IMG/VR virus record: IMGVR_UViG_3300001533_000775
Span: 1 to 49,901 of that record
Strand: one strand, 5' to 3'
Origin: a virus
DNA length: 49,901 bases
Numbering within the stretch: position 1 is the stretch's first letter; every line of letters starts with the position of its first letter. The translations under genes and the position numbers were made by a program. This document shows, piece by piece, positions 8,089 to 22,754 of this stretch. The notes below the pieces were generated by a model, which saw nothing but the letters and a program-made list of their open reading frames with translations, had not been told where the DNA came from and did not search any database.

Positions 8089-8138
8089 ATTATAGCAGAT
8101 ATCTTCTACCGCCGCAAGCGTTTAGAGGGTTATCCACA
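8089..8138 (-). promoter_or_regulatory. Leftward sigma-70 promoter with upstream DnaA box
   Basis: Read on the minus strand, TTGCGG (8117-8112), a 17-bp spacer and TATAAT (8094-8089). Upstream at 8138-8130 the minus strand carries TGTGGATAA, a perfect DnaA box (TTATCCACA on the plus strand), 12 bp from the -35. A second, weaker TGTGGATT-like copy lies next to it at about 8143-8149. Confidence 0.8.
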
Positions 8139-8169
8139 AAGAATCCACACATTTTTTGTTTGGGTTCCG

Positions 8170-8382
8170 TTAGCCAAAGTTGATTGTACCGTCAAAGTCG
8201 ATGCTTTGAATCCGGGTATTGGTCGCCCCGCGCCGAATTGCCACCTGTTCGAGAGCATGGGCAACTTGGACATCGGTTATAGGATCCCCTGTTCGGGGGT
8301 CAAGAGAGAACAGAACTTGGTGGTCAAGGTCATCTCCTACAATACCCCAGACAACATATTCGGTAGGTTGTTGTTCGGTCAC
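8170..8382 (-). CDS. Hypothetical protein (70 aa)
   Basis: A GTG start at 8382 directly abuts the upstream stop (TAAGTG), with AAAGG upstream. The sequence starts MTEQQPTEYVVWGIVGDDLD and includes a probable alpha-helix (TDVQVAHALEQVAIRRG). Unknown family. About 90 bp of promoter module follow its stop. Confidence 0.72.
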   Translation of the reverse strand: MTEQQPTEYVVWGIVGDDLDHQVLFSLDPRTGDPITDVQVAHALEQVAIRRGATNTRIQSIDFDGTINFG

Positions 8383-8625
8383 TTATGCCGCCTTTCGGTT
8401 CAGGTCCGCGTTGCACACCAGATCGAACTCAACAGTCGTCAGGTCGTTCGTATTCCGGTAGTATCCGTTATAGAGGTTGCTGGTCGGTACGAACTCCCAA
8501 GAGCCACCCAGAGCGTTCAGAGCCGCCCAGAGCCGTTCCAGCAGGGTATCCCAGTCGGGAGCCGTGCAGAGCAGTGTGGGGGGTCCGTCAAGCGTGGTCC
8601 GGTGAAAAGCAGCGTGGTTCAGCAT
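8383..8625 (-). CDS. Hypothetical protein (80 aa)
   Basis: ATG at 8625 behind GGAAAGG, with the leftward promoter at 8657-8685. The upstream in-frame ATG at 8658 overlaps the -10 hexamer and is rejected. It starts MLNHAAFHRTTLDGPPTLLC and is followed by WDTLLERLWAALNALGG, a likely amphipathic helix. Unknown family. Confidence 0.73.
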   Translation of the reverse strand: MLNHAAFHRTTLDGPPTLLCTAPDWDTLLERLWAALNALGGSWEFVPTSNLYNGYYRNTNDLTTVEFDLVCNADLNRKAA

Positions 8626-8656
8626 TTGAGGGGTTCCTTTCCAAAGGTGAGACTCC

Positions 8657-8717
8657 ATTATACACTATCGGCAAACGGAAGTCAAGCCTTTAGGGGAATA
8701 TCCACAACTTATCCACA
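8657..8717 (-). promoter_or_regulatory. Leftward promoter with two helically phased DnaA boxes
   Basis: Minus strand: TTGACT (8685-8680), 17-bp spacer, TATAAT (8662-8657). Upstream lie TGTGGATAT (8706-8698) and the perfect TGTGGATAA (8717-8709), 12 and 23 bp from the -35. The two boxes are 11 bp apart, one helical turn. The whole module is almost identical to 16690-16770 on the plus strand. Confidence 0.85.
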
Positions 8718-8762
8718 ATTTTTTTGTTAGGGTCCAGTTTGGGTTATCAGGTCCGGGGGGAG

Positions 8763-8826
8763 TCATCCACAATTTTTCCAGATAGTCGGCTAAAGGCTTG
8801 ACTTCCATTTGCCGATAGTGTATAAT
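8763..8826 (+). promoter_or_regulatory. Rightward promoter of the divergent pair
   Basis: TTGACT (8798-8803), 17-bp spacer, TATAAT (8821-8826). About 39 bp around it repeat the leftward promoter in inverted orientation. A DnaA-like TCATCCACA lies at 8763-8771, one mismatch from TTATCCACA and in the opposite orientation to the other modules. Confidence 0.82.
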
Positions 8827-8860
8827 GGGGGTGTTGACTCCCCGGAAAGGAACCCCCCAA

Positions 8861-9112
8861 ATGATCGAAATCGTCTCTGACCGCCGAACCGAAACCGGTG
8901 TGTATTTCACCTTGCGAACTCGCAAGACCTCCGCTACCATCTCCCGCAACCGTCTGGGCGTTCAGGTCGTGAAGCACAACGCCTCCCACCGAGTCTGGAA
9001 GGGTCTGGGTCGCAATTTTCCTGACTTCGAATCGGCTCTTGCCGGTTACAAGTCGGCAGACATGCGAACCCTGATCCGTTCCGCTGAAGCCCTCTCAAAG
9101 GAATCCGCCTGA
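8861..9112 (+). CDS. Hypothetical basic protein (83 aa)
   Basis: The ATG at 8861 follows GGAAAGG. The longer frame from 8825 would start inside the -10 box and is rejected. The product is basic and Arg/Ser-rich (SDRRTETGVYFTLRTRKTSA), which would suit nucleic-acid binding, but I recognise no family. The stop overlaps the next start (TGATG). Confidence 0.77.
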   Translation: MIEIVSDRRTETGVYFTLRTRKTSATISRNRLGVQVVKHNASHRVWKGLGRNFPDFESALAGYKSADMRTLIRSAEALSKESA

Positions 9113-9465
9113 TGCTTGAACTCCACAACAAGTCCGATCTTTTGGCGAACCTTGCCGACTACGAATCGTTCCATCGCCGGTGTGCCGAAAAGTTGGACAC
9201 CGATTCTTTTGAGCGGTTCGATTCTCTTTACAGTGCCGAACTCGCTGCTGATGTCATAAAGTATGTCCAGAGTCCGGAATCCTACCATCCTCTGGACGAA
9301 TCCGAACTTCTGACGAAAATGCGATGGTCCGAATTATTGTTCGACTATGTCGATGGTCCGAATTATTGTTCGACTATCCGTCGAACCTTTGGTGCGATCG
9401 TCCAGTGGATGACCGATAACGGGGCAACCGCCGCGCCTTTCCTGATGAATTACACGGAATATTGA
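9112..9465 (+). CDS. Hypothetical protein (117 aa) with an internal tandem duplication
   Basis: Coupled to the previous gene by TGATG. The N-terminal part is acidic and helical (LANLADYESFHRRCAEKLD). A 29-bp tandem duplication at about 9322-9379 is read in two different frames as RWSELLFDY and DGPNYCST, because 29 is not a multiple of three. A single-copy ancestor would have ended shortly after the repeat, so the present C-terminus (FGAIVQWMTDNGATAAPFL) or the present N-terminus is in a frame fixed by the duplication. Unknown family. Confidence 0.72.
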   Translation: MLELHNKSDLLANLADYESFHRRCAEKLDTDSFERFDSLYSAELAADVIKYVQSPESYHPLDESELLTKMRWSELLFDYVDGPNYCSTIRRTFGAIVQWMTDNGATAAPFLMNYTEY

Positions 9466-9496
9466 AAATTTTTCGCGAAATCCCCTGAAAGGGGGA

Positions 9497-9524
9497 TTGA
9501 CGGGATTCTCTGACACGGTATAAT
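9497..9524 (+). promoter_or_regulatory. Sigma-70 promoter
   Basis: TTGACG (9497-9502), 16-bp spacer, TATAAT (9519-9524), followed by the ribosome binding site GAGAAAGGA of the acidic-protein gene. A short CCCC/GGGG hairpin (about 9482-9495) sits just upstream. There is no DnaA box here. Confidence 0.78.
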
Positions 9525-9556
9525 TGGCGTGTCGCCTCTTTGAGAAAGGATCTGAA

Positions 9557-9799
9557 ATGTTTGATGACTTTGATCTTGGTGGTATTGAAGAACTCGATGA
9601 GTGTGTCAACACGGCAAACTTCTTCGATAACCGAAATGAACTGGATCGGGACTTCGAGGATGAAGATGATGACTTTGAACGGTGGACCGAGGAAGATGCA
9701 TCATTCTATGGTGATTCTCATCGAGAGTTTTATCAGGAAGATGGTGATGAATTCTACGATGATGCCGATGACCCGTTTTACAATGACTATCAGGACTAG
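9557..9799 (+). CDS. Very acidic small protein (80 aa), possible DNA mimic
   Basis: ATG at 9557 behind AGAAAGGA. The in-frame TTG at 9524 lies inside the -10 box. By my count 33 of 80 residues are Asp or Glu, with many Phe and Tyr (EDEDDDFERWTEED, then EFYDDADDPFYNDYQD), and very few are basic. Such composition is typical of phage DNA-mimic proteins such as Ocr or of RNA-polymerase or nuclease inhibitors. I see no sequence match to a named family. It is an inference from composition only. It ends in TAG. Confidence 0.78.
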   Translation: MFDDFDLGGIEELDECVNTANFFDNRNELDRDFEDEDDDFERWTEEDASFYGDSHREFYQEDGDEFYDDADDPFYNDYQD

Positions 9800-9805
9800 A
9801 GGAAG

Positions 9806-10117
9806 ATGACCGAAGAATTCGCACGATTCAAACAAGAACTCCATGATGCTTTTGAACGGGTGAACCGCGATAAACCATACCCGGTAATGCATGAGCATGA
9901 CCTGATGACCGAGTATGACTATCCCGGAACTCCATTCTGGATGATCCTTGAGCGCAAGGCAGTTTTCTTCCGCATGAACACGATGCGAGAAAAGCGGGGT
10001 CTAGATCCACTGACCGTCACTGAGTATGTCCAGAAAGTTGAACTGCCAGCAGTTGGGTTTTCGGACTACGCTGATCGTGTAGTACACAAAGCCGCTGAAC
10101 TTGCATTCTCAAAGTAA
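9806..10117 (+). CDS. Hypothetical protein (103 aa)
   Basis: Six bases after the acidic gene, with AGAGGAAG upstream of the ATG. Soluble and mainly helical (FARFKQELHDAFERVNRDK, later TMREKRGLDPLTVTEYVQ). Unknown family. It is probably co-transcribed with the acidic gene from 9497. Confidence 0.75.
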   Translation: MTEEFARFKQELHDAFERVNRDKPYPVMHEHDLMTEYDYPGTPFWMILERKAVFFRMNTMREKRGLDPLTVTEYVQKVELPAVGFSDYADRVVHKAAELAFSK

Positions 10118-10189
10118 ACTCTCTCTGCGTGGGTGGAACCCATGCTTCATAGGCATGATGCCGAACTTTGCTACTGAAAGGCAATTGGT

Positions 10190-10390
10190 ATGAAGTTTCG
10201 TGATCGCGTTCGGTTTTTCGTCTACGGTTTCATGGTTTGCTTGACTTTTGGTCTCACGCTAACTATGATGGGTGGTTGCTCGACTGTATCGGGCTTTGGG
10301 TTCGTCGTCGGCGTGGCTGCTGACCTGAAAGATGTCTCTGGGGGTGCGCGTGATTGCTCCCGTCAATCCTATGGGGGTGTCCATCGATGA
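10190..10390 (+). CDS. Small lipoprotein (66 aa)
   Basis: ATG at 10190 with GAAAGGC upstream. It has a basic N-terminus (MKFRDRVRFF), a hydrophobic segment and a lipobox ending MMGGC (Cys at about residue 30), followed by STVSGFGFVVGVAADLKD, reminiscent of entericidin-like short lipoproteins. It should be exported, lipidated and anchored in the inner or outer membrane. Roles in lysis or superinfection exclusion are possible. The stop overlaps the next ATG (ATGA). Confidence 0.7.
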   Translation: MKFRDRVRFFVYGFMVCLTFGLTLTMMGGCSTVSGFGFVVGVAADLKDVSGGARDCSRQSYGGVHR

Positions 10391-10536
10391 AGCATTTGGT
10401 TGAAAGACTCCGTTCCACTCCCGAGTGTGTGATCACACAGGGTGAGCAGGAGATTGCCGATTTGTGTGATGAAGCGGCTGATGAGATTGAGTTTCTTCGG
10501 AAGCGGATTCTTGAACTTGAATCCCAAGAGAAGTGA
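10387..10536 (+). CDS. Small helical protein (49 aa)
   Basis: Starts ATG at 10387 in an ATGA overlap with the lipoprotein gene. The product is nearly all helix (EQEIADLCDEAADEIEFLRK) with a heptad-like pattern, so it may be a coiled coil. AADEIE-L-R segments are common in small uncharacterised phage proteins. No function can be assigned. Confidence 0.65.
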   Translation: MKHLVERLRSTPECVITQGEQEIADLCDEAADEIEFLRKRILELESQEK

Positions 10537-10537
10537 T

Positions 10538-10577
10538 AACTGTTTCTCGGTTCGATGATCCTGTGGTAACAGTTTTT
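10538..10577 (+). terminator. Possible weak terminator
   Basis: AACTGTT / AACAGTT stem with a 23-base loop, followed by TTTTTC. The loop is long, so it may only attenuate. Confidence 0.35.
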
Positions 10578-10590
10578 CGGAGATTTGATC

Positions 10591-10710
10591 GTGAAAAAGA
10601 TTTTTCTGACTATGGGAATACTGGGATTACTGGCATGCGTTGGATGCTCAGGGAATTCCACCCACCGTGCAAGTCTGGAATTCACACCCCCAGTAGTTTT
10701 ACCGGGTTGA
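10591..10710 (+). CDS. Mini-lipoprotein (39 aa), candidate Rz1-like outer spanin
   Basis: A GTG start at 10591 behind GGAGA encodes a 39-residue protein: a basic start (MKKIF), a hydrophobic stretch (LTMGILGLLACVGCSG) with a lipobox at LLAC or VGC, then a short tail containing a Pro-rich stretch (EFTPPVVLPG). Length, lipobox and Pro content match small outer-membrane spanins of phages, which act with an inner-membrane spanin at lysis. No clear partner with a single TM and a coiled coil is adjacent, so this remains an inference. It ends just before the tRNA-array promoter. Confidence 0.6.
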   Translation: MKKIFLTMGILGLLACVGCSGNSTHRASLEFTPPVVLPG

Positions 10711-10731
10711 GAAAAAAATCGAAATAGTCAC

Positions 10732-10760
10732 TTGACAGTGGGCTTGAGACACTATATACT
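10732..10760 (+). promoter_or_regulatory. Promoter of the tRNA array
   Basis: TTGACA (10732-10737), 17-bp spacer, TATACT (10755-10760). The first tRNA starts about 190 bp downstream. The leader between them (10767-10957) contains no gene or tRNA that I recognise. Confidence 0.85.
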
Positions 10761-10957
10761 ACCCTCGTGACAAATGAAAACTTGAGCGAAAGGTTGGTGC
10801 GTCATGTGAACTGAAAACCCAATCCTATTTGGAAAAATAGAAACGATGAAGATATCTGATAAAGATGGTCACTGGCGGAACTGACCAAAATAGACCGCAA
10901 CTCATAATTATGGGGAATCGCTCGGATTTGAGCCGTTCCGCTTGAGTCCGACAATTT

Positions 10958-11033
10958 GAGTCACTAGTGTTTCTAACGGCTAGCACATTTGCTTTCCAAG
11001 CAAAAAGTAGGGGTTCGAATCCCCTGTGACTCT
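10958..11033 (+). tRNA. tRNA-Gly(TCC)
   Basis: Acceptor GAGTCAC/GTGACTC, anticodon stem TTTGC/GCAAA with loop TTTCCAA, T arm AGGGG/CCCCT with loop TTCGAAT. Reads GGA. Confidence 0.9.
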
Positions 11034-11063
11034 TTCTTCTTTGACAATTGCATATCTATTCAC

Positions 11064-11136
11064 GGTCCCGTGGTGAAACTGGCAATCACGCAACCCTCTC
11101 AAGGTTGTATTCGCGGTTCGAGTCCGCGCGGGATCA
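11064..11136 (+). tRNA. tRNA-Glu(CTC)
   Basis: Acceptor GGTCCCG/CGGGATC, anticodon stem CAACC/GGTTG with loop CTCTCAA, T loop TTCGAGT. Reads GAG. Confidence 0.85.
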
Positions 11137-11142
11137 TTGTAT

Positions 11143-11217
11143 GCTGGACAGGTAGAAAAGGTTTTCATACGCACCCCTCATAAGGGTGAGAACAAGGTTC
11201 GATTCCTTGGTCCAGTA
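11143..11217 (+). tRNA. tRNA-Met(CAT), possibly Ile2
   Basis: Acceptor GCTGGAC/GTCCAGT, anticodon stem CACCC/GGGTG with loop CTCATAA, T loop TTCGATT. A CAT anticodon can be Met, or Ile(AUA) if C34 is modified to lysidine. The sequence alone does not decide. Confidence 0.85.
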
Positions 11218-11223
11218 CTAGAT

Positions 11224-11295
11224 TACGGGTAGGACAAATGGATAAGTCGTCGGTTTCATACGCCGAAGGAAGTGGTTCGACTCCACTACCCGGAA
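11224..11295 (+). tRNA. tRNA-Met(CAT), second copy type
   Basis: Acceptor TACGGGT/ACCCGGA with one A-G mismatch, anticodon stem TCGGT/GCCGA with loop TTCATAC, T loop TTCGACT. It differs clearly from the neighbour at 11143, so the two CAT tRNAs probably have different identities (Met versus Ile2). Confidence 0.82.
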
Positions 11296-11300
11296 TTCAC

Positions 11301-11373
11301 AGTCCCTTGGCGAAATTGGCTATCGCATCTGGTTTACACCCAGAAGTTCTGAGTTCAAGTCTCAGGGGGACTA
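11301..11373 (+). tRNA. tRNA-Val(TAC)
   Basis: Acceptor AGTCCCT/GGGGACT, anticodon stem TCTGG/CCAGA with loop TTTACAC, T arm CTGAG/CTCAG with loop TTCAAGT. Confidence 0.9.
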
Positions 11374-11380
11374 CTAACAT

Positions 11381-11425
11381 ACCGAGTGTTCCGCTCATCG
11401 TGACGAACATCATGGCTCGGTTTTT
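11381..11425 (+). terminator. Hairpin with T-run between tRNAs
   Basis: Outer stem ACCGAG/CTCGGT (11381-11386 with 11416-11421), inner stem GTTC/GAAC, followed by TTTT. It could be an attenuator or a processing element inside the array. Confidence 0.45.
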
Positions 11426-11494
11426 ACGCTAACCCACGGCTGGGCGGGCGGATTCCAAATCCACCTAGTTAGGGATCGACACCCTCTTAGCGTG
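11426..11494 (+). tRNA. Irregular tRNA-Trp(CCA)
   Basis: Perfect acceptor ACGCTAA/TTAGCGT, anticodon loop TTCCAAA (CCA), T-arm loop ATCGACA in which the invariant T54 is A. The D region (CCCACGGCTGGG) is short and lacks the normal D loop. It is the only Trp candidate seen. It may be functional but atypical, or degenerate. Confidence 0.55.
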
Positions 11495-11500
11495 TTCAGC

Positions 11501-11575
11501 ATTCGGGTAGCCCAAATTGGTGGGAATCTCTGGCGTACGCCATTGACAGTGTGGGTTCGACTCCCACCCCGACGC
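11501..11575 (+). tRNA. Degenerate or unusual tRNA-like gene, isotype unclear
   Basis: A good T arm (GTGGG/CCCAC, loop TTCGACT) and a D arm with ATTGGT are present, but the acceptor has two mismatches. The anticodon region is the 12-bp palindrome TGGCGTACGCCA, which folds into a 4-bp stem with a GTAC loop rather than a 7-base anticodon loop. Probably a decayed tRNA. Confidence 0.45.
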
Positions 11576-11580
11576 TTTAT

Positions 11581-11654
11581 TGTCCCTTGGTGAAATTGGC
11601 TATCACGCTTGCTCGACATGCAAGAGACCCTGAGTTCGAATCTCAGAGGGACAA
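11581..11654 (+). tRNA. tRNA-Val(GAC) with C33
   Basis: Acceptor TGTCCCT/AGGGACA, anticodon stem CTTGC/GCAAG with loop TCGACAT, so position 33 is C instead of the near-invariant U. T arm CTGAG/CTCAG. Related to the Val(TAC) gene at 11301. Confidence 0.82.
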
Positions 11655-11659
11655 CTGTT

Positions 11660-11731
11660 AGCCCTGTAGTGTAATTGGTAACACAAAAGATTTTGGTTCT
11701 TTTATTTTGAGTTCGAATCTCAACGGGGTTG
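11660..11731 (+). tRNA. tRNA-Gln(TTG), copy 1
   Basis: Acceptor AGCCCTG/CGGGGTT, anticodon stem AAAGA/TCTTT with loop TTTTGGT, T arm TTGAG/CTCAA. Confidence 0.88.
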
Positions 11732-11752
11732 TTTTGATTGGATTGTTGTTGT

Positions 11753-11922
11753 GAGACTGGTATGCTCGCCGCACCGTCCAAGGTGTGAAAGTCTTAGGTA
11801 TGACGGTTCAGTGACTTGAGCCGAACTGCTCTTGACTAACGAAGAGTCGGAAAGATTTCTATCTGTCCGGAAAGATAGAAAACACTGCCGCTTTTGATTG
11901 GGTTCGATTCCCCAACGGGATG
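11753..11922 (+). ncRNA. Structured non-coding segment ending in an orphan T arm
   Basis: Consecutive perfect or near-perfect hairpins: GAGACT/AGTCTT enclosing CACC/GGTG, GGTTCA/TGAGCC, CTCTT/AAGAG with loop GACTAACG, and TTTCTATCT/AGATAGAAA. It ends with a T-arm-like TTGGG...CCCAA plus CGGGATG (11898-11922), whose 5' acceptor partner I cannot find. It is no recognisable tRNA. It lies between tRNA-Gln and tRNA-Pro and is probably co-transcribed. Confidence 0.5.
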
Positions 11923-11926
11923 TTTT

Positions 11927-11997
11927 CAGGGTATGGTGTAGCGGTAACATTTGTGGTTTGGGACCACAAGTCCTCGGTTCGATCCCGAGTACCCTGA
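11927..11997 (+). tRNA. tRNA-Pro(TGG), copy 1
   Basis: Acceptor CAGGGTA/TACCCTG, anticodon stem TGTGG/CCACA with loop TTTGGGA, T loop TTCGATC. Confidence 0.88.
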
Positions 11998-12016
11998 CTT
12001 CGAAAGGATGGTTGTC

Positions 12017-12469
12017 ATGAACAGTGAAAAGAGTTGGGTCTATCTTCATACAGAAGGTTCGATTCACTTCAAACGATATTATCCGGAACCAAGTGACTTC
12101 ACTCGCCGGATTTGGGTAATTGATCCAACAGACCGATTGACAGGTTGGCGTTTCATTCTTGAAGCATTGTCTTTCTACCCTGACAATCTCAACAACTTCG
12201 GTGGTAATGCCATTCGTCGAATGATTGAGAACAGCAACTTCGATCTTGAAGATCTGATTCAGTATCTTATCCATGAGCGAGACATCACCGAAGATCGCAG
12301 AGCGGGCATCGAAGTCTATCTCAAGACATTCTCGATTGACCGGAAGAATCCAGAGGTCTACGGCGTTGACTACGATGAATGGATGGACTGGTTAGGGTCA
12401 ACCCCCGGTGGTGAAGATCCTGACTTGGAGACCATGCCCCGACCCGTAGAAACCCAAACGACCACCTAA
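12017..12469 (+). CDS. Hypothetical protein embedded in the tRNA array (150 aa)
   Basis: Begins about 20 bases after tRNA-Pro. I choose ATG 12017 because GAAAGG at 12002-12007 is correctly spaced to it but abuts the ATG at 12008. The product starts MNSEKSWVYLHTEGSIHFKR and includes DPTDRLTGWRFILEALSF, a pattern seen in phage proteins of unknown function. The C-terminus is acidic and Pro/Thr-rich (PGGEDPDLETMPRPVETQ). No family assignment. Confidence 0.75.
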   Translation: MNSEKSWVYLHTEGSIHFKRYYPEPSDFTRRIWVIDPTDRLTGWRFILEALSFYPDNLNNFGGNAIRRMIENSNFDLEDLIQYLIHERDITEDRRAGIEVYLKTFSIDRKNPEVYGVDYDEWMDWLGSTPGGEDPDLETMPRPVETQTTT

Positions 12470-12489
12470 CAAAAAAGATCAAAAATCTT

Positions 12490-12539
12490 TGTGGATAACT
12501 CGGTCAACGGGTTGACGGCGGGTCGAAGGTTGGTATAAT
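12490..12539 (+). promoter_or_regulatory. DnaA-box promoter module driving the second tRNA block
   Basis: TGTGGATAA (12490-12498, perfect DnaA box), 13 bp, TTGACG (12512-12517), 16-bp spacer, TATAAT (12534-12539). It lies directly after the protein gene and before tRNA-like elements. Confidence 0.82.
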
Positions 12540-12572
12540 TGGGGTGTTGAGCGGGTGACTGCGAGACAAAGA

Positions 12573-12681
12573 CAAACTGTTCGCTGGGGGTTCCAGCCGA
12601 GCGGCGGATGCCGTTTCGAGACCGGTTCGATTCCGGTCGTCTCCACTGGAAGTGGGAGAGGTTCGAGTCCTCGCAGTTTGG
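12573..12681 (+). tRNA. Unusual tRNA-like element with two T-arm-like hairpins
   Basis: Perfect acceptor-like CAAACTG/CAGTTTG (12573-12579 with 12674-12680) and a T arm with loop TTCGAGT. A second T-arm-like hairpin GACCGG-TTCGATT-CCGGTC lies inside (12620-12638). No 7-base anticodon loop forms. An overlapping alternative closing stem ACTGCGAG/CTCGCAGT also exists. It may be a nested relic of two tRNAs or a novel structured RNA. Confidence 0.4.
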
Positions 12682-12714
12682 TTTCTTTGACAAGTGAATA
12701 GTTGGAATGGAAAT

Positions 12715-12905
12715 GAGTTGACAGCATTCTCTGGTTGCCCGACCTAGGCACGCCCAAAACTCTGGTGCCGAGTTTGGAACCGTGTTAGTAAAGAGGGACA
12801 ACGAGGTTTATGGTAGGGGTGCCACCGACCATAGACGGGGATAGGATCATTTGAAGATGGATCCTGCGATGATATCGCCGGGCATCCAGAGAATGCTCTC
12901 GACTC
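12715..12905 (+). ncRNA. Candidate structured RNA A (191 nt, multi-branched)
   Basis: A 20-bp closing helix (one mismatch, one wobble) joins 12715-12734 to 12886-12905, including the perfect 12-bp AGCATTCTCTGG/CCAGAGAATGCT. Inside are TGCCCG/CGGGCA, CACG/CGTG enclosing AAACTC/GAGTTT, TATGGT/ACCATA, AGGATC/GATCCT and GCGAT/ATCGC, each a perfect match. There is no tRNA signature and no coding capacity. It lies between tRNA-like genes downstream of the 12490-12539 promoter. It resembles no structured RNA that I can name. Confidence 0.65.
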
Positions 12906-12913
12906 GAACATTT

Positions 12914-12986
12914 GGCTCCCTAGTTTCAATGGTAAAACACCAAACTTTTAATTTGCGAGTTCTCGGTTCGAATCCGAGGGGGGCTA
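12914..12986 (+). tRNA. tRNA-Lys(TTT)
   Basis: Acceptor GGCTCCC/GGGGGCT, loop CTTTTAA on stem CCAAA/TTTGC (outer pair C-C mismatched), T arm CTCGG/CCGAG. Confidence 0.88.
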
Positions 12987-12994
12987 CTTTTTAC

Positions 12995-13063
12995 ATTCCG
13001 TCGCGTGGATCGTGCAGGGAGACTACGAATCTCTTATGGATAGTTCGATTCTATCACGGAATA
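12995..13063 (+). tRNA. tRNA-Arg(ACG) with short D region
   Basis: Acceptor ATTCCGT/ACGGAAT perfect, anticodon stem GGAGA/TCTCT with loop CTACGAA, T arm GATAG/CTATC. The D region CGCGTGGATCGTGCA is shorter than normal. Confidence 0.75.
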
Positions 13064-13068
13064 CTTTT

Positions 13069-13140
13069 CAGGACATCGTATAATGGCTATTAGGCGAGGC
13101 TTGGAACTTCGTGATCCCGGTTCGATTCCGGGTGTCCTGA
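13069..13140 (+). tRNA. tRNA-Pro(TGG), copy 2
   Basis: Acceptor CAGGACA/TGTCCTG, anticodon stem CGAGG/CTTCG with loop CTTGGAA, T arm CCCGG/CCGGG. Confidence 0.82.
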
Positions 13141-13145
13141 CTTTG

Positions 13146-13191: not shown

Positions 13192-13196
13192 TGTTT

Positions 13197-13268: not shown

Positions 13269-13326
13269 TTAGTTTGGAACAGGGCGAATTGGTAACCGCG
13301 TCCGGATATAAAGGGGTTACCACTCT

Positions 13327-13402: not shown

Positions 13403-13451
13403 CTGGGTATTTTCGGTTGGTTTTCTCCCGTATCAAAACCATCCACTTTAC

Positions 13452-15363: not shown

Positions 15364-15404
15364 TTGTGACTATCTCGCGAAAAAGATAGTTAGTCACAAA
15401 TTTT
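15364..15404 (+). terminator. Possible terminator or attenuator hairpin
   Basis: TTGTGACT/AGTCACAA outer stem, ATCT/AGAT inner stem, then ATTTT. It lies directly before tRNA-Ser, so it may only partly terminate. Confidence 0.5.
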
Positions 15405-15494
15405 GGAGTGTAATAGACCAGTTGGTGGTCTCCCGGTCTTGAAAACCGGTGGTGTCCTGAAATATGGCATGCAGTTCGACTCTGCTGCACTCCG
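15405..15494 (+). tRNA. tRNA-Ser(TGA)
   Basis: Acceptor GGAGTGT/GCACTCC, anticodon stem CCGGT/ACCGG with loop CTTGAAA, long variable arm (class II), T loop TTCGACT. Confidence 0.9.
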
Positions 15495-15518
15495 CTTCAA
15501 CACAGTGAAAGGTATATG

Positions 15519-16239: not shown

Positions 16240-16271
16240 TTTCAAAGTTCCGTTAGGAGAATATTTTGAAT

Positions 16272-16343
16272 GCCCGGCTAGTGTAATGGATAAAACATTC
16301 GACTTCGGATCGAAAGATGGGGGTTCGAATCCCTCGCTGGGTG
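16272..16343 (+). tRNA. tRNA-Arg(TCG)
   Basis: Acceptor GCCCGGC/GCTGGGT with wobbles, anticodon stem TTCGA/TCGAA with loop CTTCGGA, T loop TTCGAAT. Confidence 0.87.
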
Positions 16344-16353
16344 CTTATCAGGT

Positions 16354-16380
16354 TCTAGATTCGAATCCTAGAGGCAGTGC
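16354..16380 (+). other. Orphan T-arm-like fragment
   Basis: TCTAG-ATTCGAATC-CTAGA followed by GGCAGTGC, with no 5' tRNA half upstream. Probably a decayed tRNA 3' end. Confidence 0.4.
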
Positions 16381-16387
16381 TTACATT

Positions 16388-16476
16388 GGAGCGTAATCCC
16401 TGATGGTGATGGGCGGGAGTTGCTAACTCTCTGGTGTCCTGAAATACGGCATCTGGATCGTAACCAGTGCGCTCCG
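16388..16476 (+). tRNA. tRNA-Ser(GCT) with T54A
   Basis: Acceptor GGAGCGT/GCGCTCC, anticodon stem GGGAG/CTCTC with loop TTGCTAA, long variable arm, T loop ATCGTAA (position 54 is A). Confidence 0.87.
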
Positions 16477-16484
16477 CTTCCAAT

Positions 16485-16556
16485 ATCCCTGTGGTGTAAT
16501 TGGCAACACAAGAGACTTTGACTCTCTTATTCTCGGTTCAAGTCCGAGCGGGGGTG
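16485..16556 (+). tRNA. tRNA-Gln(TTG), copy 2
   Basis: Acceptor ATCCCTG/CGGGGGT, anticodon stem AGAGA/TCTCT with loop CTTTGAC, T arm CTCGG/CCGAG. Confidence 0.88.
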
Positions 16557-16581
16557 TTTTATTTTAGCAGAGGATTCAAAA

Positions 16582-16692
16582 ATGAAAACCGGTACAATCT
16601 TTATCGACATTGACGATACCGCCATTGCGATTCAGGGACACGGGAAAGACCTACTGGAAAACCCTGTTTTCAAATCCCTAGTGGAACCCTAA
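16582..16692 (+). CDS. HAD-motif microprotein (36 aa)
   Basis: ATG at 16582 behind AGAGGA. The 36-residue product starts MKTGTIFIDIDDTAIAI, which contains the haloacid-dehalogenase motif I (hhhhDxDxT, here FIDIDDT) with both catalytic aspartates. It ends before any cap domain or motifs II-IV. It is either the surviving N-terminal fragment of a HAD phosphatase or a chance ORF. The precise motif and the ribosome binding site favour a fragment. Confidence 0.5.
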   Translation: MKTGTIFIDIDDTAIAIQGHGKDLLENPVFKSLVEP

Positions 16693-16701
16693 CAAAAAAA
16701 T

Positions 16702-16762
16702 TGTGGATAAGTCGTGGATATTCCCCTAAAGGCTTGACTTCCGTTTGCCGATAGTGTATAAT
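16702..16762 (+). promoter_or_regulatory. DnaA-box promoter module with two boxes
   Basis: TGTGGATAA (16702-16710) and CGTGGATAT (16713-16721) lie 23 and 12 bp upstream of TTGACT (16734-16739). A 17-bp spacer follows, then TATAAT (16757-16762). Nearly identical to the leftward module at 8657-8733. Confidence 0.85.
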
Positions 16763-16790
16763 GGAGTCTCACCCTTTGGAAAGAAACCCA

Positions 16791-17114
16791 ATGACTGACA
16801 CAATTCCCAGCGTTTCCCAGACGATTTATGACCAGTTGGGGAATCGACGATTTACTCTCATGACCGGTGCGAAGGAATTCACTGTGGGTGATAACTGGCT
16901 CGCCTTTCGCCTACCCGGTAAAGGTGGATTCGTCCGGAAGTCGATCAACTATGTCAAGGTGACTCTTGATCGGGGCAGCGACACCTACATTCTGGAATTC
17001 AAGCGAATCTGGGGTGGCAAGGTGACCGATATCGCCAAGTATGATCGGGTCCACTGTGATGAACTGACTTGGCTCTTTGAGCGTGAAACTGGACTGGCTA
17101 CGCGGCTCTTTTGA
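16791..17114 (+). CDS. Hypothetical protein (107 aa)
   Basis: ATG at 16791 behind GGAAAG. The in-frame ATG at 16761 overlaps the -10 hexamer and is rejected. It starts MTDTIPSVSQTIYDQLGNRR. The middle is beta-rich (INYVKVTLDRGSDTYILEFK). Unknown family. Its stop overlaps the next (TTG) start. Confidence 0.75.
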   Translation: MTDTIPSVSQTIYDQLGNRRFTLMTGAKEFTVGDNWLAFRLPGKGGFVRKSINYVKVTLDRGSDTYILEFKRIWGGKVTDIAKYDRVHCDELTWLFERETGLATRLF

Positions 17115-17819: not shown

Positions 17820-17820
17820 T

Positions 17821-18465
17821 ATGAGAAGTTCGGAACTTCGAAACACCAAGCAAGAACTGGAAAAACTTCGTCGGCTTCGTGACAAAGCCGAAACCAAGAT
17901 CAAGGATCTTGAATCCAAGGTTCGGAATGCCAAGAACCCACTCGATTTCCCGGTGGATCTCCAGCGGGACATTGGAGAGCAGTTTTTCGAACTGTATGAC
18001 TTCATGCAGGAAAACTTGACCGATGTAGAAACGGGTCGAATTGAGAAAGATGTCGAACTGAATGGCATTGTATTCCAAATTGTGGGGTGGGTGGGGCACG
18101 ACGAAGGAGAGTTTATTCTAGATCAAGTAGCCATTCCGGTGCAACCCAATGAGACCCCGCGTGAAAAAATCTTTCGTGAAATGATGATGGCACAAGATCC
18201 TTGGACTATCCCCGACTACTTTACGGACAATGGGGGATGCCAAGAGTTTCAAGATCTTGCTAAAACTTTGTATGGTAAGGTTGAAGATTTCATGGAATTT
18301 GTTGAGGACACCGAGCGTATCCCTCATGATACGGCAGAATACTTCTACGATCTGTTCCGAGGGTCAAACTGCCGCGATCCCCATGTAAAACTGGTTATCA
18401 AGGATGCCCCCGCTTGGTTTCGCCCGTTCATCCGGGCACACAAGAAAAATCGAAAGACCGCTTGA
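17821..18465 (+). CDS. Hypothetical coiled-coil protein (214 aa)
   Basis: ATG at 17821, one base after the upstream stop. GGGG lies 9 bases upstream, and ATG 17812 is an alternative. The N-terminal 40 residues form a probable coiled coil (LRNTKQELEKLRRLRDKAET). The rest is acidic and aromatic (EQFFELYDFMQENLTDVETG) with a basic tail (RAHKKNRKTA). Its stop overlaps the next promoter -35. No family recognised. Confidence 0.75.
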   Translation: MRSSELRNTKQELEKLRRLRDKAETKIKDLESKVRNAKNPLDFPVDLQRDIGEQFFELYDFMQENLTDVETGRIEKDVELNGIVFQIVGWVGHDEGEFILDQVAIPVQPNETPREKIFREMMMAQDPWTIPDYFTDNGGCQEFQDLAKTLYGKVEDFMEFVEDTERIPHDTAEYFYDLFRGSNCRDPHVKLVIKDAPAWFRPFIRAHKKNRKTA

Positions 18466-18490
18466 CACCAACTTCGCGAGTGAGTATACT
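18462..18490 (+). promoter_or_regulatory. Promoter upstream of the 18.6-18.9 kb RNA block
   Basis: TTGACA (18462-18467) contains the upstream stop codon. A 17-bp spacer leads to TATACT (18485-18490). Same design as 16130-16158. Downstream a TGTGGG/CCCACA hairpin precedes the Lys-like tRNA. Confidence 0.83.
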
Positions 18491-18571
18491 GATCCAAGAT
18501 GAAAGAAGTATTGTTGCCATGAAGCATACTGGTTTTGTGGGAGTTGTCCGGTGAAACAAACCCACACCATT

Positions 18572-18644
18572 CCATCGGTGGCAGACAAGTAATGCACCCG
18601 GCTCTTACCCGGCGTTTATGAGGGGGCGGTACCCTCCCGATGGA
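18572..18644 (+). tRNA. tRNA-Lys(CTT)-like with aberrant T loop
   Basis: Perfect acceptor CCATCGG/CCGATGG, anticodon loop CTCTTAC on CCGG/CCGG, perfect T stem GAGGG/CCCTC. The T loop reads GGCGGTA instead of TTCRANN. The stems argue for selection on folding, while the loop argues against normal elongator function. Confidence 0.5.
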
Positions 18645-18673
18645 CTTTGAAACTTTGAACCGAAAGGATAGTT

Positions 18674-18835
18674 ATGCCGAATGCAAAACAGGTTGATGTC
18701 AAACGCAAGCACAAGAATCGCCAGAGACGGATTCGTGAACTTGCCCGAGAGGGTCGCGAGCAGTCAAAGCGTTTCAAGTCTCACAGCGAGTTTGACGCGC
18801 AGTCAGAAATTCGTAAGTTCATGGATAAAGACTGA
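18674..18835 (+). CDS. Small basic protein (53 aa)
   Basis: ATG at 18674 behind GAAAGGA. The product starts MPNAKQVDVKRKHKNRQRRI and continues with dense Lys/Arg, suggesting nucleic-acid or ribosome binding. It ends KFMDKD. It lies between two tRNA genes. Unknown family. Confidence 0.7.
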   Translation: MPNAKQVDVKRKHKNRQRRIRELAREGREQSKRFKSHSEFDAQSEIRKFMDKD

Positions 18836-18863
18836 TCGAATGGGGTGGTAGAGAATTGGTAGA

Positions 18864-18945
18864 GGCAGTGTGGGGAAATTAGCAGACCCGCCGAGTTTAA
18901 GTTTCGGTGCCTTCGGGCGTGCGAGTGCAAGTCTCGCCACTGCTA
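18864..18945 (+). tRNA. tRNA-Leu(TAA), class II
   Basis: Acceptor GGCAGTG/CACTGCT, anticodon stem CCGAG/TTCGG with loop TTTAAGT, long variable arm GCC-ttcg-GGC, T stem GCGAG/CTCGC with loop TGCAAGT (position 55 is G). The D loop has TAGC rather than TGGC. The 25 bases before it look like another tRNA 5' end. An orphan T-arm-like CCCGG/CCGGG follows at about 18989-19006. Confidence 0.78.
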
Positions 18946-19033
18946 TTTTTGATCCATTTTCGAATGGTGTGACTTTGAATCCTTTGATCCCGGTTTCAAC
19001 TCCGGGTGGGGATTTTTTAGAAAAGGATGCCCA

Positions 19034-19321
19034 GTGACCGACGAAAGATTTCATATTGTCTGCGAAACCTTTGGGTTCGACCCCTCTTGGATTGAGGGTC
19101 AAGCCGCTGATCTCAATGCTACAAGAGAAGATATGCTCATTGATGCCGTGATGCAAAGCGGATATGAACACGGTTACAAGGTGGCACAGAAAGACATGGC
19201 ATTTCGAGCATTCACCAAGAATCGACTTGATGAGTTCAATGAAATTGTCAACCAACCCGTTCCCCTTATCGAAGCGAAGAAACAATGCGAGACTGGTTCT
19301 CCCCCCAATTCAACCGACTGA
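19034..19321 (+). CDS. Hypothetical protein (95 aa)
   Basis: GTG start at 19034 behind AAAAGGA. It starts MTDERFHIVCETFGFDPSWI, then a helical stretch (REDMLIDAVMQSGYEHGYK). Unknown family. The 3' end overlaps the next ORF by 37 bases. Confidence 0.68.
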   Translation: MTDERFHIVCETFGFDPSWIEGQAADLNATREDMLIDAVMQSGYEHGYKVAQKDMAFRAFTKNRLDEFNEIVNQPVPLIEAKKQCETGSPPNSTD

Positions 19322-19584
19322 ATCATCATCACCCGAGGATGGGGGATGGTTGTATTCCGGTTGAGTTTGTCAAGTTTCATGAGCAGATGACACTTGCTGA
19401 ATTTTACGGTAATCGTCCTCTAGATACTCGCGATGCGGATGAAGTTGAAGCATACACACGCCGACTTGCTGAGATTCGAATCGAGTGTCTAGATGACCAA
19501 GCGAGGCAGAAATCAATGGGAGACGAGCCGTCACATGATGACTCGCCGCGTGAAGCGGGCGGGGTTCTGGTGCTCCGGGTGTGA
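19285..19584 (+). CDS. Hypothetical protein (99 aa)
   Basis: ATG at 19285, overlapping the upstream gene. An alternative ATG at 19339 would avoid the overlap but lacks a spaced ribosome binding site. Central segment EFVKFHEQMTLAEFYGNRPL, then EVEAYTRRLAEIRIECL. Its 3' end overlaps the zinc-ribbon gene at 19535. Function unknown. Confidence 0.6.
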   Translation: MRDWFSPQFNRLNHHHPRMGDGCIPVEFVKFHEQMTLAEFYGNRPLDTRDADEVEAYTRRLAEIRIECLDDQARQKSMGDEPSHDDSPREAGGVLVLRV

Positions 19585-19659
19585 CTGTGAACTTGTCCCC
19601 CCGGTTCGAAGTGGTCTTTTTGTGGAACCCGTGAGTACTCAAAGCGATTCAAGAAATGA
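19535..19659 (+). CDS. Zinc-ribbon protein interrupted by a frame change (about 41 aa)
   Basis: From ATG ATG (19535/19538) the frame gives TRRVKRAGFWCSGCDCELV. At a run of six C (19597-19602) the homologous frame switches by -1 to give PPGSKWSFCGTREYSKRFKK, ending TGA at 19657-19659. The joined product has the layout of a small phage zinc ribbon, with the third Cys position occupied by Trp (KWSFCG). The -1 frame stop overlaps the next start as ATGA, the usual coupling in this genome, whereas the unshifted frame ends at 19661-19663. Candidates are programmed frameshifting on C-CCC-CCG, a sequencing homopolymer error, or a recent mutation. Confidence 0.55.
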
Positions 19660-20345
19660 CTAAGCAGACTTTGTTCCTATCTGACTTGCATCTGGTTGCT
19701 CGCATCGTAGACATCTGGCGATTCAAACAAGCAATGAAGATGGGAAAACGACATCAATCCTCTCACCTGAAATGTATTGACCGATTGATTCGTCTTGCCA
19801 ACAAGGGTGTAAATATTCACTATCTGTGGGGAAATCATGACGAGTTTCTTTCACGGTTTGAGGGGTCTCGATCATTCGGGGGTGTGAGTCTGACAGAACG
19901 GGAAGAATACCGTTGCAGTCAAGGCAAGCGGTATCTGATTCTCCACGGTCACCAGTTCGATCTCATGAGCAGATACGAACTATTCGGAAAGTTTGGTGAC
20001 CGCTGCTACGATGCCATGATCTGGATCAATGAGAAGTTGAATCGGGTGAGAGCAATGCTTGGTATGGACTACTGGTCAATGTCCAAGTTTTTGAAAGTCA
20101 AGGTCAAGAAAGCCACGCAGTTCATAGACCGCTTTGAGACTATTATCACTGACTATGCCAAGAAGCATAACTACGATGGTGTGATCTGCGGGCATATTCA
20201 TGATCCAAAGAGTGAAATTCTAGATAACGGAATCCATTATGTAAATCTTGGTTGTTGGACGGACCTGACAAACTTGACTTACGCTGTTGACAAAGGGAAC
20301 GGAATCGAGTTAGAACAATGGCAACCCAAGGAATCAAAGTTGTAA
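19656..20345 (+). CDS. Calcineurin-like metallophosphoesterase (LpxH-like)
   Basis: A 229-residue protein with the two-metal phosphoesterase motifs: SDLHL (D10, H12), WGNHDEF (about 58-64), ILHGHQFD and CGHIHDP. The order matches UDP-2,3-diacylglucosamine pyrophosphatases and their relatives. The usual second glycine of SDxHLG is Val here. The helical insert between HGHQFD and GHIHDP is as in LpxH-type enzymes. The substrate is unknown. Lipid A precursors or nucleotides are possible, and the phage context does not decide. Coupled to the zinc-ribbon gene and overlapping the SLOG gene. Confidence 0.88.
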   Translation: MTKQTLFLSDLHLVARIVDIWRFKQAMKMGKRHQSSHLKCIDRLIRLANKGVNIHYLWGNHDEFLSRFEGSRSFGGVSLTEREEYRCSQGKRYLILHGHQFDLMSRYELFGKFGDRCYDAMIWINEKLNRVRAMLGMDYWSMSKFLKVKVKKATQFIDRFETIITDYAKKHNYDGVICGHIHDPKSEILDNGIHYVNLGCWTDLTNLTYAVDKGNGIELEQWQPKESKL

Positions 20346-20707
20346 TCGCTGGATGCAGAGACTTCTATGACTACCCTGTGGTCAAGTCTGCAATTGACCA
20401 TCTTGAGTGGTCCATTTCAGAAATTGTCTCTGGGGCTGCTACGGGTGTCGATACTTTGGGTGAACGGTATGCTAAAGAATACAATCTCAAACTCACGAAA
20501 TTCAAATCCCAGTGGGACCGCTATGGTATTCGCGCGGGACCGATTCGAAATGTTCAGATGGCACAGTATGCCGATAACTTGGTGGCATTCTGGGATGGCA
20601 AGTCTCCCGGAACAAAAAACATGATTGCGGTGATGCACCGCTTGACAAAGCCGGTTGTAGTGGTTAGAATTGACCCAAACAAGCCGAACACTTTGAAAGG
20701 GATTTGA
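20318..20707 (+). CDS. SLOG-family protein (DUF2493/YspA-like)
   Basis: A 129-residue Rossmann-like protein: VVIAGCRDFYDYPVV (nucleotide-binding GxRxF), then EIVSGAATGVDTLGERYA (SGxAxGxD), then GPIRNVQMAQYADNLVAFWDGKSPGTKNMI. These are hallmarks of the DUF2493/SLOG family, proposed to bind nucleotides or ADP-ribose-type ligands. It overlaps the phosphoesterase gene by 28 bases, suggesting coupled expression. Confidence 0.88.
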   Translation: MATQGIKVVIAGCRDFYDYPVVKSAIDHLEWSISEIVSGAATGVDTLGERYAKEYNLKLTKFKSQWDRYGIRAGPIRNVQMAQYADNLVAFWDGKSPGTKNMIAVMHRLTKPVVVVRIDPNKPNTLKGI

Positions 20708-21132
20708 TGAAATACAATGTGACAGTTGAAGCGGTTCAATTGACCAAGACAGGATTTTCAGAACGACCGGATTGGCTGTTCGATCTTCTGTATACCCGGC
20801 AGATCGAATACAACTATGAGACAGAAAACCATGTTCTCATGGACACACCGCTGGACAGCATCGACGACGGTGTAGATATTGCCGAGGGTGATTGGGTGAT
20901 TTGGTATCCAGAGTCGGGAGCCTATGCTGTCATGACCGATATCGATTTCAAAGAGACCGGTTACAAGAAAGTGGTGGACCTCCCGAAGATTATTGAGTCT
21001 CCACCACAAACTCTCCAACCTAGTATGAGAGAATTTTCAAAGATCGAACCACTCAAACAACCGATTCCGTCAAGACCGGAAATTAGGTGTGGCGCAACTC
21101 CCCCCGCTGGTCACTCCGACCGCCACTGCTAA
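20707..21132 (+). CDS. Hypothetical protein (141 aa)
   Basis: ATG at 20707 in a TGATG overlap. The first 100 residues look globular (KYNVTVEAVQLTKTGFSERP, then DIAEGDWVIWYPESGAYAVM), the pattern of small phage proteins that start with KYxxxPxxxEAxQ-like sequences and a later GDWxxx segment. The C-terminal 40 residues are Pro/Ser-rich and probably disordered. No function known. Confidence 0.72.
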   Translation: MKYNVTVEAVQLTKTGFSERPDWLFDLLYTRQIEYNYETENHVLMDTPLDSIDDGVDIAEGDWVIWYPESGAYAVMTDIDFKETGYKKVVDLPKIIESPPQTLQPSMREFSKIEPLKQPIPSRPEIRCGATPPAGHSDRHC

Positions 21133-21151
21133 AGAAAGCGAGTAAAATATC

Positions 21152-21586
21152 ATGTGGAAACTTTTTCAAGCCTTGTTTTTCAACCAGTTTGTGCAACACG
21201 ATAGTGTCAGACTTACCCGACTCCGCGCGGTTACCCGATCCCCTGCGACCCTGACTTGGAGTACAGCCAAAGATGTTGTGAAAATGGTTTTGCTCATCTG
21301 GGCAGGATTCTATACCTATGGTCGGGTTGATGCCGAAATCGCCACTTTCGGTTTGCCGGAATTCCTATCGTTCATTGCCACAGTGAGCGCGGCGGTTTTC
21401 TCTCTGGGTGTTCTCATCATGCTATGGACCATGGTATGGTCATTGGTGTCTATGGCATTGGTGACACTTTGTACTTTCCTGTTCCCCCGGAAATTTCATG
21501 AGAAGTTCGTTGAGGGTGTCAATGCCATTTTGGAATTCACCAAACAACCCCCTGTTCAGACTGGGAAGAAAACCCTGAACGGCTAA
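21152..21586 (+). CDS. Integral membrane protein (144 aa)
   Basis: ATG at 21152 behind GAAAGCGAG. An amphipathic N-terminus is followed by two or three membrane segments, MVLLIWAGFYTYG (about 45-57) and SFIATVSAAVFSLGVLIMLW then TMVWSLVSMALVTLCTFLF (about 72-111), with a soluble C-terminal tail. A holin is possible but there is no lysin next to it. Unknown function. Confidence 0.75.
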   Translation: MWKLFQALFFNQFVQHDSVRLTRLRAVTRSPATLTWSTAKDVVKMVLLIWAGFYTYGRVDAEIATFGLPEFLSFIATVSAAVFSLGVLIMLWTMVWSLVSMALVTLCTFLFPRKFHEKFVEGVNAILEFTKQPPVQTGKKTLNG

Positions 21587-21605
21587 CAGATTCCGAACAA
21601 AAAAT

Positions 21606-21656
21606 TGTGGATAACTCCGCTAAAGTCTTGACCCCATTGTGCCGATAGTATATTGA
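21606..21656 (+). promoter_or_regulatory. DnaA-box promoter module (degenerate -10)
   Basis: TGTGGATAA (21606-21614), 13 bp, TTGACC (21628-21633). The aligned -10 at 17-bp spacing is TATTGA. TATATT at 15-bp spacing is the alternative. The conserved GCCGATAGT of the other modules is present. Confidence 0.65.
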
Positions 21657-21668
21657 GAAAGGATTATC

Positions 21669-22019
21669 ATGTTTGAGAAGATCGGATTCACTGCACCGTT
21701 TACGGGAACTCTGAACTTTGGAGACAGCCCCGGTTCCCTGATCAAGTGTGCTTGGCTTGTTCTGGTTGTGTTCGGTATGTTGATACCGCTCTATGGCGGT
21801 CTGCTTGTGGGGTTTGACTTGTATCCCTATCTGGGATCCCTGCTCCCCGATGCTCCGAAATCCGCTGTAGCGGTCCTGTCGGCTCTGGGTGGTTGTCTGA
21901 CGGCTGGGATCCTTGGTGTCGTCGCCGCTGGTCTCCGGTCAATTCTGGCAACGCTGGTAGTGATTCTCTTGGCACTGGTCAACTGGTCCGATATACAAGA
22001 TCTCAACTTCGGTAACTGA
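21669..22019 (+). CDS. Integral membrane protein (116 aa)
   Basis: ATG at 21669 behind GAGAAAGGA. Three hydrophobic segments: CAWLVLVVFGMLIPLYGGLL, AVAVLSALGGCLTAGILGVV and SILATLVVILLALVNW. The topology is unclear. Candidate holin-like or envelope protein. No family recognised. Confidence 0.75.
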   Translation: MFEKIGFTAPFTGTLNFGDSPGSLIKCAWLVLVVFGMLIPLYGGLLVGFDLYPYLGSLLPDAPKSAVAVLSALGGCLTAGILGVVAAGLRSILATLVVILLALVNWSDIQDLNFGN

Positions 22020-22049
22020 CAAAACCCTAACAAGTTTTTGTGAATACCT

Positions 22050-22100
22050 TGTGGATAACTCAAGCAGTCGCTTGACTTTGACTCTAACTTAGGGTATAAT
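22050..22100 (+). promoter_or_regulatory. DnaA-box promoter module
   Basis: TGTGGATAA (22050-22058, perfect), 13 bp, TTGACT (22072-22077), 17-bp spacer, TATAAT (22095-22100). A further TGTGAATAC-like copy precedes it at about 22039. Confidence 0.85.
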
Positions 22101-22139
22101 GGTGGTGTTGACTCACTCCCCTTGGAAAGGAAATTGATC

Positions 22140-22682
22140 ATGGGTTGGACGAGCATTCCCGGTTACACGAAGTCTCAGATCATCCGAGAAGTCACCCGAA
22201 CGGGTCCAAACTCGGAACTTGTGGAGACCTCCGTCAAGGGCAACTGTGTGTGGATGGTCAGTCGGATCTACCACCCTGACGGAACCCTAAAGTCTCAGGG
22301 CATCATCCTCTACCTGCTGGAAAAGTTGGACGGGGACTGGGGGTATAAGGGTATCGATGAGACTTCTCACCCCTACTACTACAGCGTGCCGAAGTCGTGG
22401 CTCAAGCGATACCCCCTGATCGGGGACTTCTGCGACCGCTCGAAGGAATCTTCGGCGGAATGGCGTGCCAAGGTTCGCTCTCATGCCGCTGACCAAGCCG
22501 CTGAACGCTCGGTACGGGCTTCTTTGACCGCTGGCGACCGGTTCATGCTCCGGAATGTTGGACCCAAGTATGACGGTTCTGTGGCTACCGTAGTCAACCC
22601 CCGACCCCTGCGGGTGACTCTGACTGGTCACCGTGGATACTTCGGCGTTCGGTCGTCTCAGATCGGCGAGCGGGTGGGCTAA
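22140..22682 (+). CDS. DUF6927-like protein (180 aa)
   Basis: ATG at 22140 behind TTGGAAAGG. The protein begins MGWTSIPGY and contains WGYKGIDETSHPYYYSVPKS and EWRAKVRSHAA. The MGWTS start and the GYKxxDE..P...CPxS segment are characteristic of the DUF6927 family common in phages. The C-terminal third (residues 135-180) reads like a small beta-barrel (DRFMLRNVGPKYDGSVATVV). The family has no known function. Confidence 0.78.
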   Translation: MGWTSIPGYTKSQIIREVTRTGPNSELVETSVKGNCVWMVSRIYHPDGTLKSQGIILYLLEKLDGDWGYKGIDETSHPYYYSVPKSWLKRYPLIGDFCDRSKESSAEWRAKVRSHAADQAAERSVRASLTAGDRFMLRNVGPKYDGSVATVVNPRPLRVTLTGHRGYFGVRSSQIGERVG

Positions 22683-22694
22683 CACTCCCTGAAC

Positions 22695-22742
22695 AAAGAT
22701 TCCTGAGGATAACTCTCCTAAAGAGTTGCCTCGGGAATCTTT
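22695..22742 (+). terminator. Hairpin overlapping the next promoter
   Basis: AAAGATTCC / GGAATCTTT with inner GAGG/CCTC and ACTCT/AGAGT. The 3' arm ends in CTTTTC. The -35 (TTGCCT, 22726-22731) lies in the right arm, so termination of upstream transcription and promoter recognition share the same bases. Confidence 0.6.
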
Positions 22743-22754
22743 TCGTGGTATAAT
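22704..22754 (+). promoter_or_regulatory. Promoter module with near-DnaA box
   Basis: TGAGGATAA (22704-22712, one mismatch to the DnaA box), 13 bp, TTGCCT (22726-22731), 17-bp spacer, TATAAT (22749-22754). Confidence 0.75.

Follow-up and report, generated by a model that had tools for sequence, protein, structure and literature searches.

The window, the whole stretch of 49,901 bases (47.6% GC) that was analysed, is the linear IMG/VR virus record IMGVR_UViG_3300001533_000775. It encodes 30 tRNAs, and its replication genes include a family-B DNA polymerase (phrog_262), UvsX and a DnaB-like helicase. Contig G002 overlaps window positions 1-3785 at 99.87% and extends the sequence by 10.8 kb to the left, where a sliding clamp, a clamp loader and two DNA methyltransferases are found. 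Polymerase, UvsX, helicase, clamp and clamp loader are all of the T4 type, and it is by replication genes only that the phage is termed T4-like here. A scan of the window for the T4 late promoter TATAAATA, and for that motif only, gave no matches with 0.5 expected; the late promoter motif of this phage probably differs from that of T4 or sits elsewhere. The polymerase is at most 46% identical to those of cultured phages and the window has no DNA match in the phage collection, and neither comparison points to a host. DnaA boxes were scored against the DnaA consensus, a specificity assumed for the true host, whose DnaA may differ.

A second contig, G001 (IMGVR_UViG_3300001533_001001, 34.6 kb), has genes that complement those of the window: ribonucleotide reductase, thymidylate synthase, primase and tail proteins. 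The two have no genes in common, barring the promoter cassettes described below and a match of 36 residues at the repetitive end of the window. Their tetranucleotide profiles correlate at 0.93, compared with 0.86 for one half of the window against the other and 0.1-0.4 for distant relatives. By these signs G001 is probably another part of the same genome, or of a sister phage. The fragments analysed, window, left extension and G001, thus come to 95 kb of one phage or of a phage plus its sister. At window 49108-49901 an open reading frame with a 9-nt periodic repeat, tail-fibre or collagen-like, runs off the end; it has weak similarity to the first open reading frame of G001.

One promoter unit recurs across these sequences in about a dozen copies that have diverged; it consists of a DnaA box, a -35 hexamer, TATAATGG and the ribosome site GGAAAGGA. 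The pattern can be written AACAAAAAA..TTGTGGATAACTC..CTAAAG.C-TTGxxx-N16/17-TATAATGG..(C)CTTGGAAAGGAAC-ATG. With the exception of the cassette at 12490, the start codon of a different small open reading frame (71-180 aa) lies 20-45 nt past each one. Of ten such putative targets compared with PHROGs, three match families without assigned function and seven match nothing, which fits an early host-takeover set.

The module coordinates given in a preliminary description of this DNA were confirmed throughout. On the minus strand, the cassette at 8089-8149 has the box TGTGGATAA at 8138-8130 and, 2 bp upstream, a second box TGTGGATTC at 8149-8141, followed by -35 TTGCGG (8117-8112) and -10 TATAAT (8094-8089); the putative target is a 93-aa open reading frame at 7780-8061. 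Also on the minus strand, the cassette at 8657-8717 has an outer box TGTGGATAA (8717-8709), an inner box TGTGGATAT (8706-8698), -35 TTGACT (8685-8680) and -10 TATAAT (8662-8657), and faces an 80-aa frame at 8383-8625. Its near-identical inverted copy lies on the plus strand at 16702-16762, with outer box TGTGGATAA (16702-16710), inner box CGTGGATAT (16713-16721), -35 TTGACT at 16734, -10 TATAAT at 16757 and, as putative target, a 107-aa frame at 16791-17114 (phrog_9437). Three further plus-strand cassettes lie close together. That at 21606-21654 (box TGTGGATAA, -35 TTGACC at 21628, -10 TATATT at 21649) precedes a 116-aa frame at 21669-22019. That at 22039-22100 has a second box TGTGAATAC at 22039-22047, the box TGTGGATAA at 22050-22058, -35 TTGACT at 22072 and -10 TATAAT at 22095, and precedes a 180-aa frame at 22140-22682 (phrog_21047). 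The last, at 22704-22754, has -35 TTGCCT at 22726, -10 TATAAT at 22749 and a putative 71-aa target at 22788-23003; its box reads TGAGGATAA, the one-mismatch copy that had been reported.

Is there an exception to the orientation of the boxes? One had been proposed at 8763-8771, as an inverted near-match. The site reads TGTGGATGA on the minus strand, in the sense of the minus promoter at 8685-8657 and 45 bp further upstream, and was dropped as a true inverted exception. The neighbouring plus-strand promoter at 8777-8826 (-35 TTGACT at 8798, -10 TATAAT at 8821, putative 83-aa target at 8861-9112) is a degenerate cassette copy with an eroded box of its own, CCAGATAGT. The single orientation therefore stands, and without a clear exception.

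The cassette at 12490-12539 on the plus strand (box TGTGGATAA, -35 TTGACG at 12512, -10 TATAAT at 12534) faces a tRNA segment whose first called tRNA is at 12914. The earlier suggestion that part of the tRNA array belongs to the regulon holds for this promoter, but the other promoters of the tRNA region (10732, 14110, 15242, 16130 and 18462) are without a box. Several further features were seen in this part of the window. A tRNA-like stretch at 12557-12680, with matching ends ACTGCGAG...CTCGCAGT, is called by neither ARAGORN nor Rfam; after it, at 12715-12905, comes an inverted repeat of 27 nt whose arms are separated by 137 nt. The gene at 15404-15495 is tRNA-Ser(UGA) according to ARAGORN and tRNA-Sec according to Rfam (50 bits), and an Rfam tRNA at 11146-11214 (33.6 bits) is absent from the ARAGORN list. 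An unboxed promoter at 9460-9540 (TTGACG/TATAAT) follows a CCCCTGAAAGGGG palindrome, perhaps the site of a different regulator.

The exact 9-mer TTATCCACA/TGTGGATAA occurs seven times in the window, where Markov models of order 1-4 predict 0.25-0.55, or about 0.4; by this count DnaA boxes (TTATNCACA) close to promoters exceed chance. G001 has four exact copies of TGTGGATAA (about 0.2 expected), all four in the cassette setting and 35-36 bp from the -10. Six of the seven in the window lie upstream of sigma-70-type promoters in a single orientation, the six that had been described; the seventh, which had been missed, is at 28662-28670 on the plus strand, inside an open reading frame (27988-29055) without a promoter cassette, and is probably a chance occurrence. 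Were boxes as frequent away from promoters as near them, an outcome raised earlier as a test of the idea? They were not: over the 95 kb, ten of the 11 exact boxes are at the promoter position and one is elsewhere. As had been noted for six modules, the promoter-proximal site lies 12 or 13 bp from the -35; in the double modules at 8717 and 16702 the exact box is the outer one, 23 bp from the -35. Relative to the -10 the proximal site is placed more tightly still, 34-36 bp away in 11 of 11 cassettes.

The modules, however, are not independent. The segments 8630-8733 and 16686-16789 are inverted copies, 94% identical over 104 nt, and nearly all pairs of cassettes align far above shuffled sequence; the modules are homologous (paralogous) copies of one promoter cassette. 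Constant spacing is thus partly inherited, and the count of independent modules must be discounted. The contention that a fixed helical phase argues against chance is for this reason only partly right: the placement is real, but it does not represent six separate coincidences. A stronger argument is the survival of the box amid the decay of its flanks. When ten non-redundant cassettes are compared in pairs, the box is on average 93% identical and the -10 97%, but the -35 only 51%, the gap between box and -35 48%, the 20 nt upstream of the box 37% and the spacer 35%. Because the cassettes share ancestry, statistics of this kind, which take them as independent, are optimistic, and formal P values are of limited worth. 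Common descent predicts an even decay; a box kept while its flanks decayed is constrained, and its conservation is attributed here to selection and not to copying alone. Chance as the source of the boxes was dropped, the enrichment and the retention of the box being too strong.

The boxes also occur in pairs. A second, degenerate box in the same orientation lies at exactly 2 bp in five of 11 cassettes (four of the ten non-redundant ones), and the other six have a single box. The pairs at 8717 and 16702 had been recognized before; the second boxes at 8141-8149 and 22039-22047, also at 2 bp, had not. In the cassettes at 8138, 22050 and G001 16270 the partner lies on the upstream side of the consensus box, in those at 8717 and 16702 on the downstream side; no second box was found in the cassettes at other upstream spacings from 0 to 15. 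None of 20,000 shuffles reached the observed number of second boxes at 2 bp, although these may be inherited through cassette kinship. In Escherichia coli, DnaA in vivo needs box pairs 2 or 3 bp apart, typically one consensus and one degenerate; most single consensus boxes are without detectable in vivo binding, and binding at the purH pair, with its 3-bp spacing, drops strongly when one base pair is added between the boxes (PMC11317965). The finding on single boxes speaks against the DnaA reading for the six cassettes that have only one. Promoter strength differs as well. Among 21 TATAAT promoters in the 95 kb, the -35 sequence TTGACA is present in none of ten boxed and six of 11 unboxed promoters (Fisher P=0.012). 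Selective retention of the box, pairing at 2 bp and the weaker -35 of boxed promoters together support a functional DnaA site. A weak -35 with a conserved site upstream suggests activation, and a site near -53 would be poorly placed for simple steric repression.

How might such a cassette work? The reading preferred here, given a probability of about 0.5, is that host DnaA, bound near -53, draws RNA polymerase to the promoters of one tRNA segment and of small genes of the phage. One early-promoter cassette would have been multiplied across the T4-like genome, each copy with a high-affinity DnaA box, in some a double box spaced by 2 bp, centred about 40 bp upstream of the -10, then a sub-optimal -35, the consensus TATAATGG and a strong ribosome-binding site. 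When phage DNA enters, host DnaA is already on hand; sitting on the box as a monomer or in head-to-tail dimers, it would stabilize sigma-70 RNA polymerase at a promoter whose -35 is weak, and the small phage-specific genes and the tRNA segment would thereby be switched on. Both the binding of DnaA and the sign of its effect are read from sequence here. DnaA is a known activator, at nrdAB and, via the beta subunit of RNA polymerase, at lambda pR/ori (PMC8203912; PMC3698200). More tentatively, and with the odds against it, the cassettes might serve a lytic T4-like phage as a dispersed early-gene timer that depends on DnaA without a phage-encoded regulator, firing on a single genome and fading as replication spreads DnaA over more copies.

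Among known systems, E. coli nrdAB and other double-DnaA-box promoters resemble the phage cassette in that a consensus box precedes a sigma-70 promoter whose -35 is weak, and in same-orientation pairs 2-3 bp apart that combine one consensus and one degenerate box. The nrdA pair itself, however, abuts the -35 and is in opposite orientation, whereas the phage box stands 12-13 bp above the -35; with position and orientation both different, the cassette is not simply a copied nrd promoter. Unlike bacterial nrdAB promoters it is also multi-copy, and its geometry was found in none of the known DnaA-activated promoters examined. T4 early and middle promoters, read by host sigma-70 and with MotA/AsiA, offer another likeness, one design dispersed before small host-takeover genes. 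T4 promoters of these classes have a MotA box near -30 or are strong early promoters, and they are not known to have a DnaA box. Lambda is a temperate phage with a single DnaA-helped promoter and boxes downstream of it, in contrast to the boxes upstream of about a dozen promoters in this T4-like phage. Common to both, as predicted here, would be a phage promoter that host DnaA assists through contact with RNA polymerase (PMC8203912, PMC3698200).

Does the arrangement occur elsewhere? A loose scan of IMG/VR for a box with a promoter gave at least 118 stretches, and among the matches listed, barring near-identical contig families, gaps ranged from 8 to 26 bp. A conserved box at gap 14 in marine contigs was dropped, as it may belong to the end of a coding sequence upstream. 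With the strict cassette pattern G001 alone matches in IMG/VR; with a relaxed one there are four matches in G001 and one each in six other stretches, two of them identical. The strict pattern has ten unrelated, chance-like matches in GTDB genomes. Scans for a double box with a promoter did no better than the reversed control (two matches against three), and thus the arrangement is not a general viral habit. In relatives identified by DNA polymerase and ribonucleotide reductase (1.17 Mb), none of 19 exact boxes lies in a cassette. The cassette looks like an invention of this lineage, as far as these scans reach, and no multi-promoter DnaA regulon in a lytic phage was found in the literature searched. 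Pseudomonas phage phiK7A1 (MT740307.1, about 95485-95565; L183:2450-2530) has two intergenic head-to-tail double DnaA boxes with 3-bp spacing that face each other, a possible independent case of phage DnaA use.

Could the box be read by something other than DnaA? A phage-encoded regulator with DnaA-like specificity, located in an unrecovered part of the genome, could control the regulon; T4 MotA is a dedicated phage activator of a cassette regulon, and the present genome is in hand only as fragments of 49.9, 10.8 and 34.6 kb. This is unlikely, because the 9-mer is the exact DnaA consensus and the 2-bp pairing is DnaA's own spacing rule; moreover, the four records searched, the window and contigs G001, G002 and G003, which represent an incomplete genome, have no match at E<=1 to the DnaA C-terminal DNA-binding domain (PF08299), whereas control genomes match. 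About equally unlikely is pure dispersal of the cassette, the box being incidental, or else belonging to an upstream element that the alpha subunit of RNA polymerase or another host factor recognizes. All cassettes are indeed homologous and an A-rich flank (AACAAAAAA) precedes the box, but the nine box positions survive among neighbours decayed to 35-50% identity, the site contains GC, unlike an A/T-tract upstream element, and second boxes lie at exactly 2 bp.

Alternatively DnaA might be bound for another end. Phage copies of the box could soak up the initiator and halt chromosome initiation, or the regulon could shut itself off once replication has diluted DnaA among many copies. The boxes are high-affinity, several of them cluster at window 8130-8771 and G001 16262-16923, and extra DnaA boxes are known to titrate the protein (PMC5835720). 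Titration would not need a fixed distance to the -10, constant orientation or intergenic placement at promoters, however, and seven to 11 boxes are a modest number, so that this explanation ranks a little below the preceding two; its self-shutoff version requires promoter activation anyway and is compatible with activation by host DnaA. The divergent cluster at 8.1-8.8 kb might instead be a replication origin that uses DnaA and transcription, its promoters being secondary, as boxes are clustered with divergent promoters in both the window and G001, and lambda ori is activated by DnaA-stimulated transcription (PMC3698200). That is very improbable: the boxes stand at single promoters scattered across 14.6 kb, genes of the T4 type (DNA polymerase, clamp, clamp loader, helicase and primase) give the phage a replisome of its own, and no unwinding element or origin array was seen.

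Activation by host DnaA would be of significance in several respects. Lambda pR provides the main known case of a phage that employs DnaA as a transcription factor, and how DnaA activates transcription has been called poorly understood (PMC11317965); the cassettes constitute a natural set of spacing and single- and double-box variants with which that activation can be studied. Nearly all bacteria have DnaA, and it is essential. By reading it, a phage would come to depend on a factor that the host cannot lose, and would tie its early programme to the replication state of the host. The cassettes suggest that a phage may use the host replication protein DnaA to switch on a set of small genes.
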